A stretch of 41,131 nucleotides of DNA from Chitinophaga pinensis (lineage in GTDB: Bacteria; Bacteroidota; Bacteroidia; AKYH767-A; OLB10), in contig CALQOD010000014.1 in the NCBI GenBank assembly GCA_943332105.1, forward strand, positions 1-41,131, read 5' to 3'. Of this stretch, positions 846-41,068 are shown piece by piece (positions within the stretch are counted from its first letter, which is position 1; every line of letters starts with the position of its first letter). The notes under the pieces were generated by a model. That model made no database searches. It had not been told where the DNA came from and was given only the letters and a program-made list of their open reading frames with translations. A program made the position numbers and the translations under genes.

Positions 846-877
846 ATTGAAAGTTAGTCAATTTGAAAATTATCTGA

Positions 878-951
878 GACATCTCCCTACCTCTCCAAAG
901 GAGAGGAGAATAAATCTAGTCCCTCCGAAGGAGGAATTTAGGGAGGTCTAA
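878..951. repeat. Intergenic inverted-repeat unit, copy 1 (GACATCTCCCTACCTCTCCAAAGGAGAGG ... CCCTCCGAAGGAGGAATTTAGGGAGGTC)
   Basis: Internal hairpins CCTCTCC-AAA-GGAGAGG and CCTCC-GAA-GGAGG; outer arms roughly complementary. A second copy lies at 1050-1123. Confidence 0.8.
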
Positions 952-5899: not shown

Positions 5900-6124
5900 A
5901 GGTGTAGGTTTGCCCGTAGACAATTTATAGGTGCGGGTTTGTATACAGGTGTGGGTTTAAACCCACACCTGTAAGGAACGTGAACATGAAAATAAAATTC
6001 ATGGTTTTGCATTTATTCAGGTGTAGGTTTAAACCTACACCTGTTGTAGGTAATTACATTTCATAATTTGATATAACCGCATCGCATTTTTATAGGTGCG
6101 GGTTTAAACCCGCACCTATAATCC
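5900..6124. repeat. Nested palindromic repeat cluster 1 (core GGTTTAAACC)
   Basis: Perfect palindromes CAGGTGTGGGTTTAAACCCACACCTG (5946-5971), CAGGTGTAGGTTTAAACCTACACCTG (6018-6043), TATAGGTGCGGGTTTAAACCCGCACCTATA (6091-6120), with spacers shared with 10558-10963. Confidence 0.95.
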
Positions 6125-10562: not shown

Positions 10563-10963
10563 GTGCTGGTTTGAAAACAGGCACGGGTTTAAACCCGCAC
10601 CTGTTGTGGGTAATTACATTTCATAATTTGATATAACCGTATCACATTATTATAGGTGCGTGTTTGTATTCAGGTGTAGGTTTGCCCGTAGTGTGCTAGC
10701 GCTACTACAGGCCTATACCTGTAATGAACGTGAACATAAAAATAAATTCATGGTTTTGCAATCATAATCATATGTGTTTGTAAACAGGTGTAGGTTTAAA
10801 CCTACACCTGTTGTAGGTAATTACATTTCATAATTTGATACAACAGCATCGTATTTTTATAGGTGCGGGTTTAAACCCGCACCTATAATCCTAGAAGGTG
10901 CACAAACACGAAAAAATTTATTTGAATGAAAATAAAATAGGTTTGGGTTTAAACCTGCACCTA
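10558..10963. repeat. Nested palindromic repeat cluster 2 (core GGTTTAAACC)
   Basis: Palindromes at 10578-10603 (one arm mismatch), 10785-10810 (identical to 6018-6043), 10858-10887 (identical to 6091-6120), 10938-10963 (imperfect); spacer GGTAATTACATTTCATAATTTGATAYAAC occurs twice here and once in cluster 1. Confidence 0.95.
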
Positions 10964-35515: not shown

Positions 35516-35615
35516 GTTTTAAATTTTACTCATCGATTAATAGTACTACATAGTAAAAACAGTTGCATAAGTGGCAAAATAAATTTATAGCGTTCAACAC
35601 CTTTTATATAATTCA

Positions 35616-35829
35616 GTGGCAAGTAAAATCTGACGTTTTTTGAAGCTCTTTGAAAATTTCAAAAAGATAAAAATTTGATTTATTGAGCAAAAAAACCACG
35701 TTTTACAATATATAAATAACTGATAATTAGTATAAAACATAATAGCAGAGAGCCGATATTTGCCATTTTTAATGAATTGAACAATAAGTAATTTTACTTA
35801 TTGTTTTCAGTTGTTTGCCACTTTATATT
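35616..35829 (+). promoter_or_regulatory. Conserved promoter cassette copy 1, bounded by GTGGCAA/TTGCCAC and ending in TATATTTG
   Basis: Near-identical ends with 39279-39491; internal hairpin AATAAGTAA-TT-TTACTTATT; TTG-N20-TATATTTG fits the Bacteroidota -33/-7 promoter; ATG of the 35853 gene follows. Confidence 0.75.
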
Positions 35830-35852
35830 TGAGAATCTAAAATCTAATAATT

Positions 35853-37382
35853 ATGAAAATATCAAAAAAACCACTAGCACTATGGTGCTTATTAATTAAT
35901 GTTCTTATGGCTAATGCACAATTTGTTTCTCCTGTTATACAGGATAGCAGTTATGGAGTCAGTCCTATTTATAGCCGTAATACTGGCTGTGATATTATGA
36001 CTTTTAATAATAATACATATCGTGTAAGTGTTTGGGGTAATGCTACAAAAAATAGAGGATTCGGTTGGGTGGTTGATTATATGGGTAATAGCTATGTTGG
36101 AACATTACCCCTTACTTATCCCGGATATTTAGAGGACCCTGACGTTTGTATACTCACAAAGTCTGATTCTAACCTTCTTGCGGCAGTAGTTTATTATGAT
36201 TCATTGAGCTCAAATTATTATTTAGAAATATTTGAATGGAAAAGCAGCATTTTGGCGTTTTCATCAGTTAATGTTACCAATTTTGCAAATGCTCCTTTTG
36301 GCACCACTTTAAACATTGATGGTAATAGTAAGCTAGTTGGGGAATTTACGATAGTTTGGGATGACCAATCAAAAAGAATATTTGCGGCTGTCGGAAATAC
36401 TTCTTCAGTAATTATATCGACAAATCAATTAAAGGATGGAATAAATCCTGATGTAAGTTTATATATTGACGGTGGTGCTGACGTAGTTCATGTTTGCTAT
36501 ATTGATGCTACTAGTGGCGAATTAATAGTGACGGATTATAATTTTAATGACTTAGCGTCATCAATAGTTAATGTTATTGCTGGGCCTTACGTATATTTAC
36601 CAATAAATTCTTCGTATAAATGGGAATTTCCAAGAATTGCCTCTCCTGGCCCTAATGGCGGGAGCCCTTCTGATTGGACTGTGGTAGCTCTTGAGCGTGA
36701 AATTATTCTGAGTAGTCCTCCTAATAATTGGTACATCAGAGGTTATAATAATGGCACAAGTACGATTATTAATTATAATGTCTCTTTAATAGACATTTCA
36801 AAATTTCCGAATTATTATTCAAGTATTTGCTACTCTAATAATTACCCCTCAGATGGCATTTATGTAGGTTGGTCATTTTATTCAGGTAGGCAAGGCTTTA
36901 CTAATGTAATTGATAGTGCTGATTACTCAATAGTACTTAGATGTAATAGCAATGCTTTACCAATTGATTCCCTATTCTGGCAAGTACCTTATTCAATTAC
37001 AAGTAATAACGGTGACATATCGACCTTTTTATCATTAGCGGGAAGGCATGCAGACAATGAATTATTCGCGACTTATCAAAATATTAGTATTGGAGGCGCC
37101 AATGTATGGGATGTGAATTATAAAATGATTAAGTCTATTTCGTCTGCTACAAGTTTTAAGTCGCATCAAAACGTGACAACAATACAATCTGACTCATCGA
37201 AAGAATTGCTACAAACAAGTTACTACTCTTCAGACGGTAAATTATTATTTACTACAAAAAACAAAAATACTGATGAGTTTGAAAATTACTTCAAAAACTT
37301 TACTAATGATTTTATAATTCAAAAATCAGAATATAGTAACCATACATTTCGTTCAATAAAATTAGCTAGATTTAATCATTAA
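35853..37382 (+). CDS. Secreted hypothetical protein, paralog A1
   Basis: Signal peptide (ALWCLLINVLMANAQF); strong similarity along its length to 39515..41068. Confidence 0.8.
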   Translation: MKISKKPLALWCLLINVLMANAQFVSPVIQDSSYGVSPIYSRNTGCDIMTFNNNTYRVSVWGNATKNRGFGWVVDYMGNSYVGTLPLTYPGYLEDPDVCILTKSDSNLLAAVVYYDSLSSNYYLEIFEWKSSILAFSSVNVTNFANAPFGTTLNIDGNSKLVGEFTIVWDDQSKRIFAAVGNTSSVIISTNQLKDGINPDVSLYIDGGADVVHVCYIDATSGELIVTDYNFNDLASSIVNVIAGPYVYLPINSSYKWEFPRIASPGPNGGSPSDWTVVALEREIILSSPPNNWYIRGYNNGTSTIINYNVSLIDISKFPNYYSSICYSNNYPSDGIYVGWSFYSGRQGFTNVIDSADYSIVLRCNSNALPIDSLFWQVPYSITSNNGDISTFLSLAGRHADNELFATYQNISIGGANVWDVNYKMIKSISSATSFKSHQNVTTIQSDSSKELLQTSYYSSDGKLLFTTKNKNTDEFENYFKNFTNDFIIQKSEYSNHTFRSIKLARFNH

Positions 37383-37394
37383 TAAGTTGTCTTT

Positions 37395-39044
37395 ATGAAA
37401 AAATTCTTTATAATATTTGTAATAATATTAATACAAGCCAATTCCAATGCCCAATCATTTAACTATATAGATGATCATTGCTTCGGAACAATTAGTATGG
37501 AAGAAGGAAATGCTATCACGCGCCTAAACCAACTAAATGTAATAGTAGGTCATAGTACTTGTTATTATGCGCAACAAGATAAAACAGAACCCAACTGTGT
37601 ACTCACTGGTAATAGTAAAGATATTTGGATTATTGCTTTTGATGATTCGCTTCACAAAAAATGGGACAAAATTTATGGTACAAATTCATATCAGGATGAA
37701 GCATATAGCATCATACAATATAAACAAGGGTTTTTAGTTGCTGGTCATACTGAAGGAGATTCTTCCTGTAGTCTATCAACTACCACAAAAGGGGATTGTG
37801 ATTATATTTTATTATATCTTGATTCACTTGGAAACAAAATCAATGAAACACGCTTTGGTTCAATTGGTATTGATAAAATATGTAGTGCTGCACAAACTTT
37901 AGATGGAGGTTTGTTATTATCAGGTTCAAGTAATGGAGTACATAGTTTTGATAAATCTCAAAATGCATTCTATTACCCAAATCAAACACCATTTCAAGCA
38001 GATTATGACCTTTGGGTAATCAAGCTAGACTCATTAGGAAACAAGCAATGGGACCGAATTTTTGGAGGAATGGGTAATGATAGCGGAGATGGAATATTGT
38101 ATATGCAAAAAACACAAGGGCATACAATACTGAATGATAGTTCTTACCTTGTATATGGCGGAACAGTAAGTGGTGTTGGCGGAAATATAACTTCTTCACC
38201 TATCTCACCTGCTTATGCAGAGGCAATAGTTTTTAAAGTTGATAAAAATGGAAATAAAATTTGGGATAAACGTTATGGTTGTACAGGTTGTATTGGCTGG
38301 ACAGAGTTGACAAAAATTATTGAAAAGGATAATTATTATTATTTATTTGGCAGTAAAACTAACGTGATGTTACCAAGTTATGAGCCTGACCTATGGATTA
38401 TTAAAACGGATACGAATGGTAATATTATATGGGAGAAAACATATGGAACTTCAGAAATCGATCGTTTTGCTGACGTAATAGTTAATACACAAGGTAGCTT
38501 TTTTGCTTTAGGGTCTATTTGTATTTCAAATGGTTCTTTTCTTAACCCTGGATATGGAGCATATGATGCAGTGATTATGAATTTTGATACTTCTGGAGCT
38601 TTATTGACTTATAAATATTTAGGGGCCAACAATTCAGATTTTGGCAATTCACTAATCCAAATAAATGATAGCACCCTACTTATTTGTGCAACAGCGGAAG
38701 ATGGTATAAGTAATGTGAAAAACGATGCAGGTCGTGGCGCAAAAGATATTTGGGCTGTGAAATTAGGGTATTCATCAACAACTACTTCTATCAATCAACT
38801 ACAAAATAATTTATCACTAACGGTAAGGCCTAACCCCGCAAAGGACCATATTGATATTAGCGGCTTACCGCCATCAGCTTATACTATTAATACATACAGT
38901 CTTGATGGCCGTTTGGTAATGAGTGATATAGTTACCTCCGATTTATCACTTCCACTTTCAATAGAATCCTTGCAAAGTGGTATGTATATCACCAGCATTA
39001 AGAACGAAAAAATCAACACAACTGTTCGTTGGGTGAAAGAGTAA
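37395..39044 (+). CDS. Beta-propeller-like secreted protein with T9SS type A sorting domain
   Basis: Repeated DIWIIAFDDSLHKKWDKIYGTNSYQDEAYSI / DLWVIKLDSLGNKQWDRIFGGMGNDSGDG blades; C-terminus LTVRPNPAKDHIDISGLP ... SGMYITSIKNEKINTTVRWVKE. Confidence 0.9.
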   Translation: MKKFFIIFVIILIQANSNAQSFNYIDDHCFGTISMEEGNAITRLNQLNVIVGHSTCYYAQQDKTEPNCVLTGNSKDIWIIAFDDSLHKKWDKIYGTNSYQDEAYSIIQYKQGFLVAGHTEGDSSCSLSTTTKGDCDYILLYLDSLGNKINETRFGSIGIDKICSAAQTLDGGLLLSGSSNGVHSFDKSQNAFYYPNQTPFQADYDLWVIKLDSLGNKQWDRIFGGMGNDSGDGILYMQKTQGHTILNDSSYLVYGGTVSGVGGNITSSPISPAYAEAIVFKVDKNGNKIWDKRYGCTGCIGWTELTKIIEKDNYYYLFGSKTNVMLPSYEPDLWIIKTDTNGNIIWEKTYGTSEIDRFADVIVNTQGSFFALGSICISNGSFLNPGYGAYDAVIMNFDTSGALLTYKYLGANNSDFGNSLIQINDSTLLICATAEDGISNVKNDAGRGAKDIWAVKLGYSSTTTSINQLQNNLSLTVRPNPAKDHIDISGLPPSAYTINTYSLDGRLVMSDIVTSDLSLPLSIESLQSGMYITSIKNEKINTTVRWVKE

Positions 39045-39068
39045 ATAACAATTGTTTATAGAAATTTC

Positions 39069-39090
39069 AAGGGGCCTCGTGCCCCTTTTT
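39069..39090 (+). terminator. Terminator hairpin AAGGGGC-CTCGT-GCCCCTT + T tract
   Basis: Perfect stem 25 bp after the stop of the 37395 gene. Confidence 0.88.
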
Positions 39091-39278
39091 TAATTAAAAC
39101 TATTTTAGTACAAGTCAATACGAGTAAAGAAATCTCAACCAACACCCGGGGAAATTCGTAACTAACCCTACTCCTTTTAATTTTCATTATCATAAAGCGC
39201 GTTTATACTCACAAATAGGTTTTGGTTAATTTTATTTCGTATGCCTTTAATAAAGCAATGAATAAATTATATAACCTA

Positions 39279-39491
39279 GTGGCAAGTAAAACCTGACGTT
39301 TTTTGAAGCTCTTTGAAAATTTCAAAACGATGAACTTTTGATTGATTGAACAAAAATTGTAATTATTTGAGTCTGTTAACAATTGATTATTAATGTAATA
39401 AGTAATAATCGAAAGGCGATATTTGCCATTTTTAATGAATTGAAAAATAAGTAATTTTACTTATTGTTTTCAGTTATTTGCCACTTTATAT
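39279..39491 (+). promoter_or_regulatory. Conserved promoter cassette copy 2
   Basis: See 35616-35829. Confidence 0.75.
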
Positions 39492-39514
39492 TTGAGCACC
39501 AAAAATCTTAAACT

Positions 39515-41068
39515 TTGAAAAAATTAAAACAAGTATTAGTATTATTATGTATAGCTGTTTTGAGCTACAATGCAAATGCTCAATTTGTACTACCAACTAT
39601 TCCAGATAGTAGTTATGGCGCCAACTCCATTTATAGTAGAAGGACAGGCTGTGATATTTATTATTTGAACGACTCAGCGATTTATCGAGCGAGTGTATGG
39701 GAACAAGATTCGGCAGCAAGGGGGTTTGGATATGTTGTAGATTATAATGGCACGAGGTATCAAGGTACACTACCATTTTATTGCACGGATCATGTATTAA
39801 ATGCTGATGTATGTCTATTAAAAAATTCAAGCAATACAATAACTGCCGCAGTAGTTTATAATGACTATAATAACAATAATTATTTCCTAGAATATTTCGA
39901 GTGGAAGGCTACTATTAATGATTTCGTTTCCGTTTATGTAGATACACTATATTCGACAACAACAGGAACTACCTTAAATATCGATGGTAATAGTTCTGTT
40001 GACGGAGAATTTACGATTGTATGGGATGATAACGATAGTATTATTTATTATGTAGTTGGTAGTATTGCGAATGGTGTAAATAATACAAGAGTCTTAACTT
40101 ATGGCATATCACCTGATGTGAGTATGTATTTTGATGGAACAAATGATGTTGTCCATGTTGTTTATATTGATACGCTTAATTATGAATTAACGGTTTCAGA
40201 TTATAATTTTTCGGATTTATTGTTAAGCATAACAAGTCCACTTTATACGCAAAGCGTTGCCCCAGGCGCAAATTTAAAATGGGCATTTCCACGAATAGCC
40301 TCACCGGGTCCTAATGCTGGAGGTGTTAACGAATGGACTGTTATAGCACTTGAATGGGAATTGACGAACTGGTATGTAACCGGGTTTAATAATAGTTTAG
40401 CTACACGTATACCATATAATTACATCACTTTGCCAAATCCACCTACACCTCCAATTAATTTGAATAAAGTATCAAATTATGATTTGAGTGTTTGTTATTC
40501 GAATAATTACCCAACTGACGGTATTTATGTTGGTTGGGCATTTGATGCAGATCCATCGATATTTTCATCGACAGTAAGCAACATTTCTATAAACACAAAC
40601 TATTCTATTGTTTTAAGGTGTGATAACAATGCAGTAAATCTAGATACTGCCTATTGGCAGGTTTCAAGCTCAATAACAAGTAACAATGATGATTTCTCTT
40701 CATTTTTATCTATGGCATCAAGACATGGCTCTGATGAATTATTCGCCACATATCAGAATATGGTAATCGACAGCAATAATTTATACGATATTAATTATAA
40801 AAGTATAGTTCCTATATCTTCAGCCACAAGCTTAAAAACAAGTAATATTTCGACCAATCCAAATAGAAAAATTATAGGAATAAGCGGTTATGATACAACA
40901 GGTAAATTATTATTTGTAAAATCATACTTGAATGTGGAAGAAATAAAATTTGATATTCCTAATGAATGTTATAATCAAATATTATTAATTAAATTTGAAT
41001 ATGATGATATGACATATATTACTAATAAATATTTTATCAACACTTCAAAAGCTTATTTCTTAAAATAA
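39515..41068 (+). CDS. Secreted hypothetical protein, paralog A2
   Basis: Shares PDSSYGxxxIYSRxTGCDI, GTTLNIDGNSxxxGEFTIVWDD, FPRIASPGPNxG, VCYSNNYPxDGIYVGW with 35853..37382. The ORF track begins at this position with a TTG start. Confidence 0.8.
   Translation: MKKLKQVLVLLCIAVLSYNANAQFVLPTIPDSSYGANSIYSRRTGCDIYYLNDSAIYRASVWEQDSAARGFGYVVDYNGTRYQGTLPFYCTDHVLNADVCLLKNSSNTITAAVVYNDYNNNNYFLEYFEWKATINDFVSVYVDTLYSTTTGTTLNIDGNSSVDGEFTIVWDDNDSIIYYVVGSIANGVNNTRVLTYGISPDVSMYFDGTNDVVHVVYIDTLNYELTVSDYNFSDLLLSITSPLYTQSVAPGANLKWAFPRIASPGPNAGGVNEWTVIALEWELTNWYVTGFNNSLATRIPYNYITLPNPPTPPINLNKVSNYDLSVCYSNNYPTDGIYVGWAFDADPSIFSSTVSNISINTNYSIVLRCDNNAVNLDTAYWQVSSSITSNNDDFSSFLSMASRHGSDELFATYQNMVIDSNNLYDINYKSIVPISSATSLKTSNISTNPNRKIIGISGYDTTGKLLFVKSYLNVEEIKFDIPNECYNQILLIKFEYDDMTYITNKYFINTSKAYFLK

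Follow-up and report, generated by a model that had tools for sequence, protein, structure and literature searches.

Surface-protein families such as Campylobacter fetus sap and Mycoplasma vpma and vsa use conserved 5′ regions to recombine. Vpma recombination is driven by Xer1 (PMC5634654). In Bacteroidota, the primary-sigma promoter has the consensus TAnnTTTG at −7 and TTTG at −33 (PMC7366714), and Bacteroides surface structures use invertible promoters (PMC4747536). The window, the whole 41,131-nucleotide stretch analyzed here, carries two copies of an element, E, that shares features with each of these systems. With a probability of about three in four, E is a regulated primary-sigma promoter of secreted-protein operons, with module exchange across loci and species.

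According to an independent repeat search, the longest direct repeat within the window is 35604-35869 / 39267-39532 (identity 81-82% overall), and the two E copies within it lie 3.66 kb apart in tandem (Table 1). The original prediction of near-identical ends at these two sites holds, with 98% identity over the left 42 nt and 97% over the right 77 nt. The repeats themselves are real, but the limits first given were too narrow: the left end starts earlier, at TTATATAA (35604 and 39267), and the right end reaches TTTGAG (35833 and 39496). The 101-nt middle, previously described as unrelated, is 68% identical; the middles are diverged yet homologous, since 69/101 matches exceed the 51 ± 3.7 obtained for shuffles. 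The downstream paralogs F1 and F1′ are much more diverged than the ends, as had been proposed, with 49% protein and 58% DNA identity and only 37% identity, which is saturated, at third positions of conserved four-fold-type codons. The ends are therefore conserved far above the synonymous baseline, which is not the pattern of a simple duplication, although gene conversion rather than selection could account for part of this conservation.

E is present in at least 12 copies at no fewer than six loci in four closely related freshwater Bacteroidota species, with four copies in the genome of the window (G000) and eight in three sister species (G001, G002 and G006). Copy 2 is 98% identical both to the E at the G006 M24 locus and to the E that lies terminally on G000 contig C5. 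Every E with visible downstream sequence precedes a secreted-protein operon. The genus was sampled by seven genomes; no E was found in the other 17 family genomes searched, and no description of it was found in the literature searched. Viral contigs, plasmids and phages that were searched contained no copies, and carriage of E by mobile elements was rejected on this basis. These genomic comparisons are best explained if the secreted-protein operons F1-F2, F3 and F4 form a family confined to the genus, with E as their promoter and upstream control region. The propeller-like assignment of F1 is tentative because its AlphaFold model has a mean pLDDT of 47.8.

Table 1. Features of the two cassettes in the window, in order of position.
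Feature	Position	Strand	Support
Element E copy 1 (type A), predicted promoter and upstream control region of the F1-F2 operon	35604..35833	+	Longest window repeat; 12-copy alignment
E1 left conserved end TTATATAATTCAGTGGCAAGTAAAATCTGACGTTTTTTG, distal site	35604..35647	+	Kept in 12/12 copies; 163-166 bp from palindrome in 10/10 complete copies
E1 palindrome AATAAGTAATTTTACTTATTG; final three bases form the −33 TTG	35783..35803	+	10 copies; recurs at sRNA-like locus in 4 species
E1 −7 box TATATTTG, N20 after TTG; E-cargo switch points map to surrounding 16-20 bp	35824..35831	+	Pattern match; crossover intervals
F1, secreted protein, 509 aa, all-beta propeller-like model (low confidence)	35853..37382	+	No Pfam or NCBIfam match
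F2, 549 aa, SBBP-type beta-propeller-like, type IX secretion C-terminal domain	37395..39044	+	Por_Secre_tail / TIGR04183
Intrinsic terminator AAGGGGCCTCGTGCCCCTTTTTT closing cassette 1	39069..39091	+	3′ alignment; common to most cassettes
radA 3′ flank remnant (AATTAAAACTATTTTAGT)	39092..39109	+	20/23 nt match to G001 alr-radA locus
Decayed alr (alanine racemase) 3′-end fragment, left limit uncertain	39110..39219	+	Aligns colinearly with the alr 3′ ends of both G001 and G006
alr-E spacer common to the alr-radA locus of G001 and G006	39220..39266	+	80-83% identity
Element E copy 2 (type A)	39267..39496	+	Alignment of copies
E2 palindrome with −33 TTG	39446..39466	+	
E2 −7 box TATATTTG	39487..39494	+	Pattern match
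F1′, F1 paralog (49% identical), TTG start	39515..41068	+	
F2′ start, signal peptide only, contig end	41076..41131	+	Homolog in G001 C138 continues into F2 gene

The most fitting reading of E is a Bacteroidota primary-sigma promoter equipped with a putative two-site upstream control region. The fit of TTG-N20-TATATTTG to this promoter class, noted in the original prediction, is exact in both window copies (35801-35831 and 39464-39494). All complete copies match the −7 consensus TAnnTTTG, nine of ten as TATATTTG and the G002 copy as TATATTTA, and in all of them the −33 TTG lies exactly 20 nt upstream, as ATTG rather than TTTG. The perfect palindrome AATAAGTAAnnTTACTTATTG overlaps this TTG, and only its two central bases vary across the 10/10 copies that contain it. 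The distal site keeps its distance from the palindrome while the middle becomes unalignable between types. Between A-type and C-type copies, identity is 79-88% in the left ends and 78-88% in the right ends, whereas the middle, with 46-58 matches, is no more similar than shuffled sequence (about 50). The resemblance of the distal site to the palindrome (AAGTAA...TGAC) is weak. Among the other symmetric motifs first listed as shared, the GTGGCAA/TTGCCAC arms and the AATAAGTAA/TTACTTATT palindrome are conserved in nearly all copies, but TTTGAAAATTTCAAA is restricted to type A, shows no conservation in the B and C types, and was rejected as a common operator.

The palindrome combined with TTG-N20-TAnnTTTG (0-1 mismatches) occurs at 14 sites in 42 genomes of the order, 10 of them in E and four at an orthologous sRNA-like locus. 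This conserved locus is unrelated to the cassettes and has two palindromes 185-186 bp apart in four species, flanked by conserved blocks. It is neither a tRNA nor a tmRNA; it has no Rfam match at gathering thresholds, and a direct search returned only a sub-threshold snoRNA match. The same palindrome and spacing ahead of an unrelated locus argue for selected regulator sites. A dimeric regulator may bind the palindrome in E, with the distal site contacted via looping or by a second protein, and such a regulator would control all operons of the family jointly.

The flank, promoter and coding modules have incongruent histories. Identity is well correlated within E (left-middle 0.78; middle-right 0.73), less so between flank and middle (0.44), and not between cargo and either middle (−0.05) or flank (−0.08). 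The cassettes of G000 C50 and G006 30k have flanks and E 94-100% identical and unrelated cargo, while those of G000 C50 and G001 C151 have cargo about 99% identical and different flanks. Cargo tracts are 99-100% identical in species with about 8-13% divergence in their housekeeping genes. The crossover intervals, 20, 17, 16 and 20 nt in four informative comparisons that share sequences and are not independent, all lie at the −7 box. Comparison of the assembled loci thus shows chromosomal flank, E and cargo to have been exchanged against one another across at least six loci and four species, with the apparent E-cargo switch at the −7 box. The process is probably RecA-type homologous recombination or gene conversion through shared promoter, terminator and signal-peptide sequences. 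Such recombination, including between co-occurring species, would swap surface-protein genes behind a constant promoter. The original prediction offered a selected regulatory element or a mobile, gene-converted cassette; given the further copies, conserved ends, fixed spacing and recombination relative to flanks and cargo, both halves appear true.

The cassette is wider than first described and comprises E, F1, F2, a terminator and gene-tail remnants. Copies at another locus retain about 75 nt of the terminator and radA 3′ end (score 107; shuffle maximum 32-35). Between the window cassettes, the decayed alr fragment runs into the strongly matching alr-E spacer. These decayed alr and radA ends point to an ancestral alr-E-cargo-radA locus from which both window cassettes, now neighbors, descend. 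No base-exact empty site was found: the G004 alr-radA locus has a different 122-aa gene, and the G002 M24 locus diverges after the gene.

A stronger proposal is that exchange occurs preferentially at the −7 box segment (CCACTTTATATTTGAG) itself. This segment would be the join at which active shuffling of surface-protein cassettes among co-occurring freshwater species swaps whole operons, while the promoter ahead of them stays constant and jointly regulated and the same regulator site ties in the small RNA. We consider this unlikely. Somewhat less likely again is an artefact of metagenome assembly or binning as the main source of the flank-E-cargo mosaic, with reads of related species mis-joined at the conserved E ends. 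Every genome compared is a draft assembly, at least two were assembled from metagenomes according to their records, and co-occurring species could be mis-binned; several cassettes lie at contig ends (contigs ending in or near cassettes are G000 C5, C8 and C14, G006 C43 and G001 C112), and the conserved right end of E can exceed a short k-mer length. However, the interval common to both parents of the G006 18k cassette is only 20 nt, shorter than the k-mers (assumed to be at least 21). Moreover, G001 C28 and G006 C1, two assemblies from different sample dates, agree on one locus and its E, and the decay of the alr and radA remnants marks them as old scars rather than joins.

It is very doubtful that E is an invertible promoter or another site-specific recombination unit, with GTGGCAA...TTGCCAC half-sites flipping the segment or the palindrome serving as a recombinase core. 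The element has a suitable length of about 200 bp, inverted GTGGCAA/TTGCCAC near its ends and switch points clustered within 16-20 nt, and the Bacteroides precedent exists. Yet 12/12 copies share one internal orientation, with no inverted middle, and the arms are no longer than 7-8 bp and carry uncompensated changes in three of the copies (GTAGCAAG, TTTACCAC and GTTGCCCC), which also tells against the terminal inverted repeats raised in the original prediction. Since the −7 box lies outside these arms, inversion would not switch it cleanly. The palindrome is disfavored as a recombinase core because the G006 18k switch falls downstream of it and because it is also present at a promoter without a cassette. 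A MITE-like transposable element carrying a promoter by chance is equally improbable: its short, TIR-like ends at several loci are matched by E, but conserved sequence extends past the putative TIRs on both sides, the assembled downstream sequence is always a similar leader and signal-peptide gene, and among the copies no solitary E and no target-site duplication were seen.

The possibility of a structured RNA or regulatory leader common to the operons, also raised initially, draws on the conserved ends and a perfect palindrome able to form a hairpin, but is extremely unlikely. The palindrome lies upstream of the predicted start, as its last bases are the −33 TTG, and the predicted leader is just 20-24 nt and variable. 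Its arms never vary and so offer no covariation, and E has no Rfam match. A passive, recent tandem duplication whose ends are merely the least decayed part would fit the tandem arrangement and the junction-like alr/radA remnant between the copies, but is rejected on the further copies at other loci and in other species, the contrast between 97-98% identical ends and saturated coding sequence, and a spacing that stays fixed while the middle of E decays.

The preferred reading, a regulated promoter with exchangeable surroundings, describes a surface-protein family of uncultured Bacteroidota whose chromosomal positions, promoters and proteins behave as evolutionarily separable modules, the promoter being both the conserved part and the point where histories switch. 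The 230-bp E, with its two nearly invariant ends, provides a sequence handle to find and test cassette exchange in lake metagenomes. The palindrome over −33, common to a conserved sRNA-like locus, is a testable candidate operator in a group that has seen little work on transcriptional regulation.

Compared with type IX secretion cargo, the family is similar in that F2 and F3 carry the sorting domain Por_Secre_tail / TIGR04183, whereas the domain search recognised no C-terminal sorting domain in F1 and F4. Like Bacteroidota primary-sigma (sigma-ABfr) promoters (PMC7366714), E has an exact −7 box, and a TTG, within ATTG rather than TTTG, lies 20 nt upstream at about −33; unlike them, it has a perfect palindrome covering −33 and, about 165 bp upstream at fixed spacing, a conserved distal site. 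With the invertible promoters of Bacteroides (Mpi / Tsr19) it shares a position ahead of surface-structure genes and inverted sequence near its ends (PMC4747536), but differs in its short, imperfect arms, external −7 box and uniform orientation. In sap, vpma and vsa, as here, conserved promoter-proximal sequence precedes a variable secreted or surface protein, and recombination swaps the product expressed, as is proposed for E. In contrast to those systems, each E copy is a complete promoter at one of several chromosomal loci rather than part of a single expression site, and the apparent exchange of E cassettes is one between species.

E, the ~230-bp promoter and upstream control region present twice in the window, is a real, recurrent promoter region that is probably under selection and that, judging from comparison of its copies, is an exchange boundary of a surface-protein family. 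The two copies form the longest direct repeat found by repeat search in the window, which spans all of contig C14 of a draft genome (G000; 2.77 Mb, 147 contigs). Their left (42 nt) and right (77 nt) ends are 98% and 97% identical, with 101-nt middles at 68%. The secreted-protein genes behind them, F1 and F1', are paralogs sharing 49% protein identity and 37% identity at third positions of conserved 4-fold-type codons; the predicted structure of F1 is of low confidence. Near-identical ends before far more diverged paralogs were thus correctly described in the original prediction. Since end identity (97-98%) lies well above that of the paralogs' third positions, the ends are not an effect of recent duplication, and a simple tandem duplication is further contradicted by additional copies of E.

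Coordinates of E copies, cargo genes and associated features
Feature	Location	Remark
E copy 1	window 35604-35833	
E copy 2	window 39267-39496	
F1	window 35853-37382	gene behind copy 1
F1'	window 39515-41068	gene behind copy 2
Terminator of cassette 1	window 39069-39091	
radA 3' flank match	window 39092-39109	short; after cassette 1 terminator
alr match	window 39110-39219	decayed, colinear with last ~110 nt of alr; then alr-E spacer, E copy 2
sRNA-like locus	G000 C82, 1714-2065	orthologous non-E palindrome-promoter site
sRNA-like locus	G001 C55	orthologous non-E palindrome-promoter site
sRNA-like locus	G002 C49	orthologous non-E palindrome-promoter site
sRNA-like locus	G004 C189	orthologous non-E palindrome-promoter site
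107-nt repeat	window 6018-6124, 10578-10684, 10785-10891	three copies; REP-like, perfect palindrome TTATAGGTGCGGGTTTAAACCCGCACCTATAA
39-nt repeat	window 877-915, 1049-1087	two copies 172 bp apart; CTCTCCAAAGGAGAG palindrome

Searching the genome and its relatives recovered E elsewhere in G000 (C50:903 and the end of C5) and in sister species G001 (three places), G002 (one) and G006 (four). E is absent from the other three genomes of a genus sample of only seven and from 17 genomes elsewhere in the family. In GTDB r220, exact scanning matched only two assemblies, both metagenome-derived and already in the set (Jr-14may18-136 and Jr-28jun17-226, whose record names we take to denote a freshwater pond series), and the viral contigs, plasmids and phages searched contained no E. 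Wherever the sequence behind E is assembled, it consists of a leader of 20-24 nt followed by a gene whose start resembles a signal peptide. The cargo is of four types (F1, F2, F3 and F4); F2 is SBBP-propeller-like with a type IX tail, and F3 carries a type IX tail. A lone F2 C-terminal fragment (G000 C44:19969-20268; 100 aa at 72% identity) with a cassette-like terminator behind it is a remnant, or the end, of another cassette. The copy at the C5 contig end (9811-10000) matches window copy 2 at 98% and lacks ~52 bp containing the palindrome and -33 element, exactly between two TATTTGCCA direct repeats; this looks like a promoter-inactivating slippage deletion.

Alignment of 12 copies defines a conserved left end (TTATATAAnnnAGTGGCAAGTAAAAYCTGACGTTTTT), a middle of 100-103 bp in three types (A, B and C, with A and C alike only at shuffle level) and a conserved right end with AAAATAAGTAAnnTTACTTATTGTTTTCAGTTATTTGCCACTTTATATTTGAG. 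The left site lies 163-166 from the right-end palindrome in all ten complete copies. The palindrome-to-TTTATATTT distance is 39 in every copy measured, excluding G006 18k and G001 C28, where an upstream TTTATATTT was scored and the alignment is of normal layout.

Cargo differs between sister species at the same chromosomal place (alr, radA, acs and similar names are presumptive, read from translations). The alr-radA interval holds E-F3 in G001 and E-F1-F2 in G006. Behind acs, a SnoaL-like gene and E lie F3 in G000, F2 alone in G001, and F4-F3 in G006, which has in addition F1-F2 behind a duplicated small gene. G000 C50 and G006 30k are 94-100% alike in flank and E, with unrelated cargo, whereas C50 and G001 C151 have nearly the same cargo over its first 1 kb (~99%), E at 82-85% and no common flank. 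Likewise, window F1 and G006 18k are 99% identical from the leader to ~+780, with E at only ~70%, no common flank, and radA regions differing by ~8-13%. E at the G006 M24 locus matches window copy 2 at 98%, against ~89% for the flank, so that E and flank again prove separable. In G006 62k the signal peptide of window copy 2 (97%) precedes a copy-1-like mature protein: signal peptides, too, can switch between proteins. Across ten complete copies, identities of E parts intercorrelate (0.72-0.78), the middle correlates moderately with the flank (0.44, p ~0.01), and E shows no correlation with cargo (-0.05). Four informative triples, which have members in common and are not independent, map the E-cargo switch to intervals of 20, 17, 16 and 20 nt that surround CCACTTTATATTTGAG; the fifth triple bounds it to 53 nt only.

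The main rival, that assembly chimerism produced this exchange signal, draws on the draft status of every genome compared. It is nevertheless unlikely, given agreement between separately sampled assemblies, an overlap of only 20 nt in the 18k case and decayed gene-end scars between the window cassettes. Several contigs stop within or beside cassettes or radA (G000 C8 end, G001 C112 start, window 41131), which is what sequence that is repeated or varies within the population should produce.

As to origin, the alr remnant match is marginal alone (score 29-33; shuffle mean 19-21, maximum 35-39) and passes unbroken into a strong alr-E spacer match. In both G006 and G001, the F2 cassettes at acs retain a longer radA end (score 107 versus a shuffle maximum of 32-35). 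The simplest reading is that the window cassettes descend from an ancestral alr-E-cargo-terminator-radA unit, which would have been amplified and then spread carrying scraps of neighbouring genes. Upstream of E in G006, a REP-like inverted repeat (C1, 7113-7181) is inserted between the intact alr gene and a duplicated remnant of the alr end.

At 0-1 mismatch, the palindrome with TTG-N20-TAnnTTTG occurs at 14 sites in 42 genomes of the order, namely ten E copies and four orthologous non-E sites. The latter have two palindromes 185-186 bp apart around a diverged middle, the proximal one with the same arms as in E. This spacing exceeds that of E (AAGTAA to AAGTAA, ~164-167) by ~20 bp or two helical turns, which is no more than suggestive. 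Downstream, a conserved ~115-nt stretch that has a 12-bp closing stem and lacks an ORF has no Rfam match; it is a candidate new small RNA, and the locus a candidate member of E's regulon. A 24-nt match (96%) to its core occurs in another family of the order (G036 C43:15404-15427). Reuse of the palindrome is the best argument that the ends of E are selected regulator sites and not merely homogenised repeats.

The recurrence, conservation, fixed spacing and promoter geometry of E, with the palindrome reuse and module exchange demonstrated here, uphold the view of a selected regulatory element or exchanged promoter cassette over a passive remnant. A dimeric regulator may bind at the palindrome, with the left end as a distal site. 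Exchange, both between species and inside one genome, would proceed by homologous recombination or gene conversion at common promoter, signal-peptide and terminator sequences; a dedicated site-specific mechanism might conceivably act at the -7 box. Overlap with the -33 TTG places the palindrome ahead of the predicted transcript, which makes it a DNA site and not an RNA hairpin, one of the options raised earlier. As for the proposed primary sigma promoter, TTG-N20-TATATTTG fits the Bacteroidota -33/-7 consensus (PMC7366714), except that ATTG replaces TTTG.
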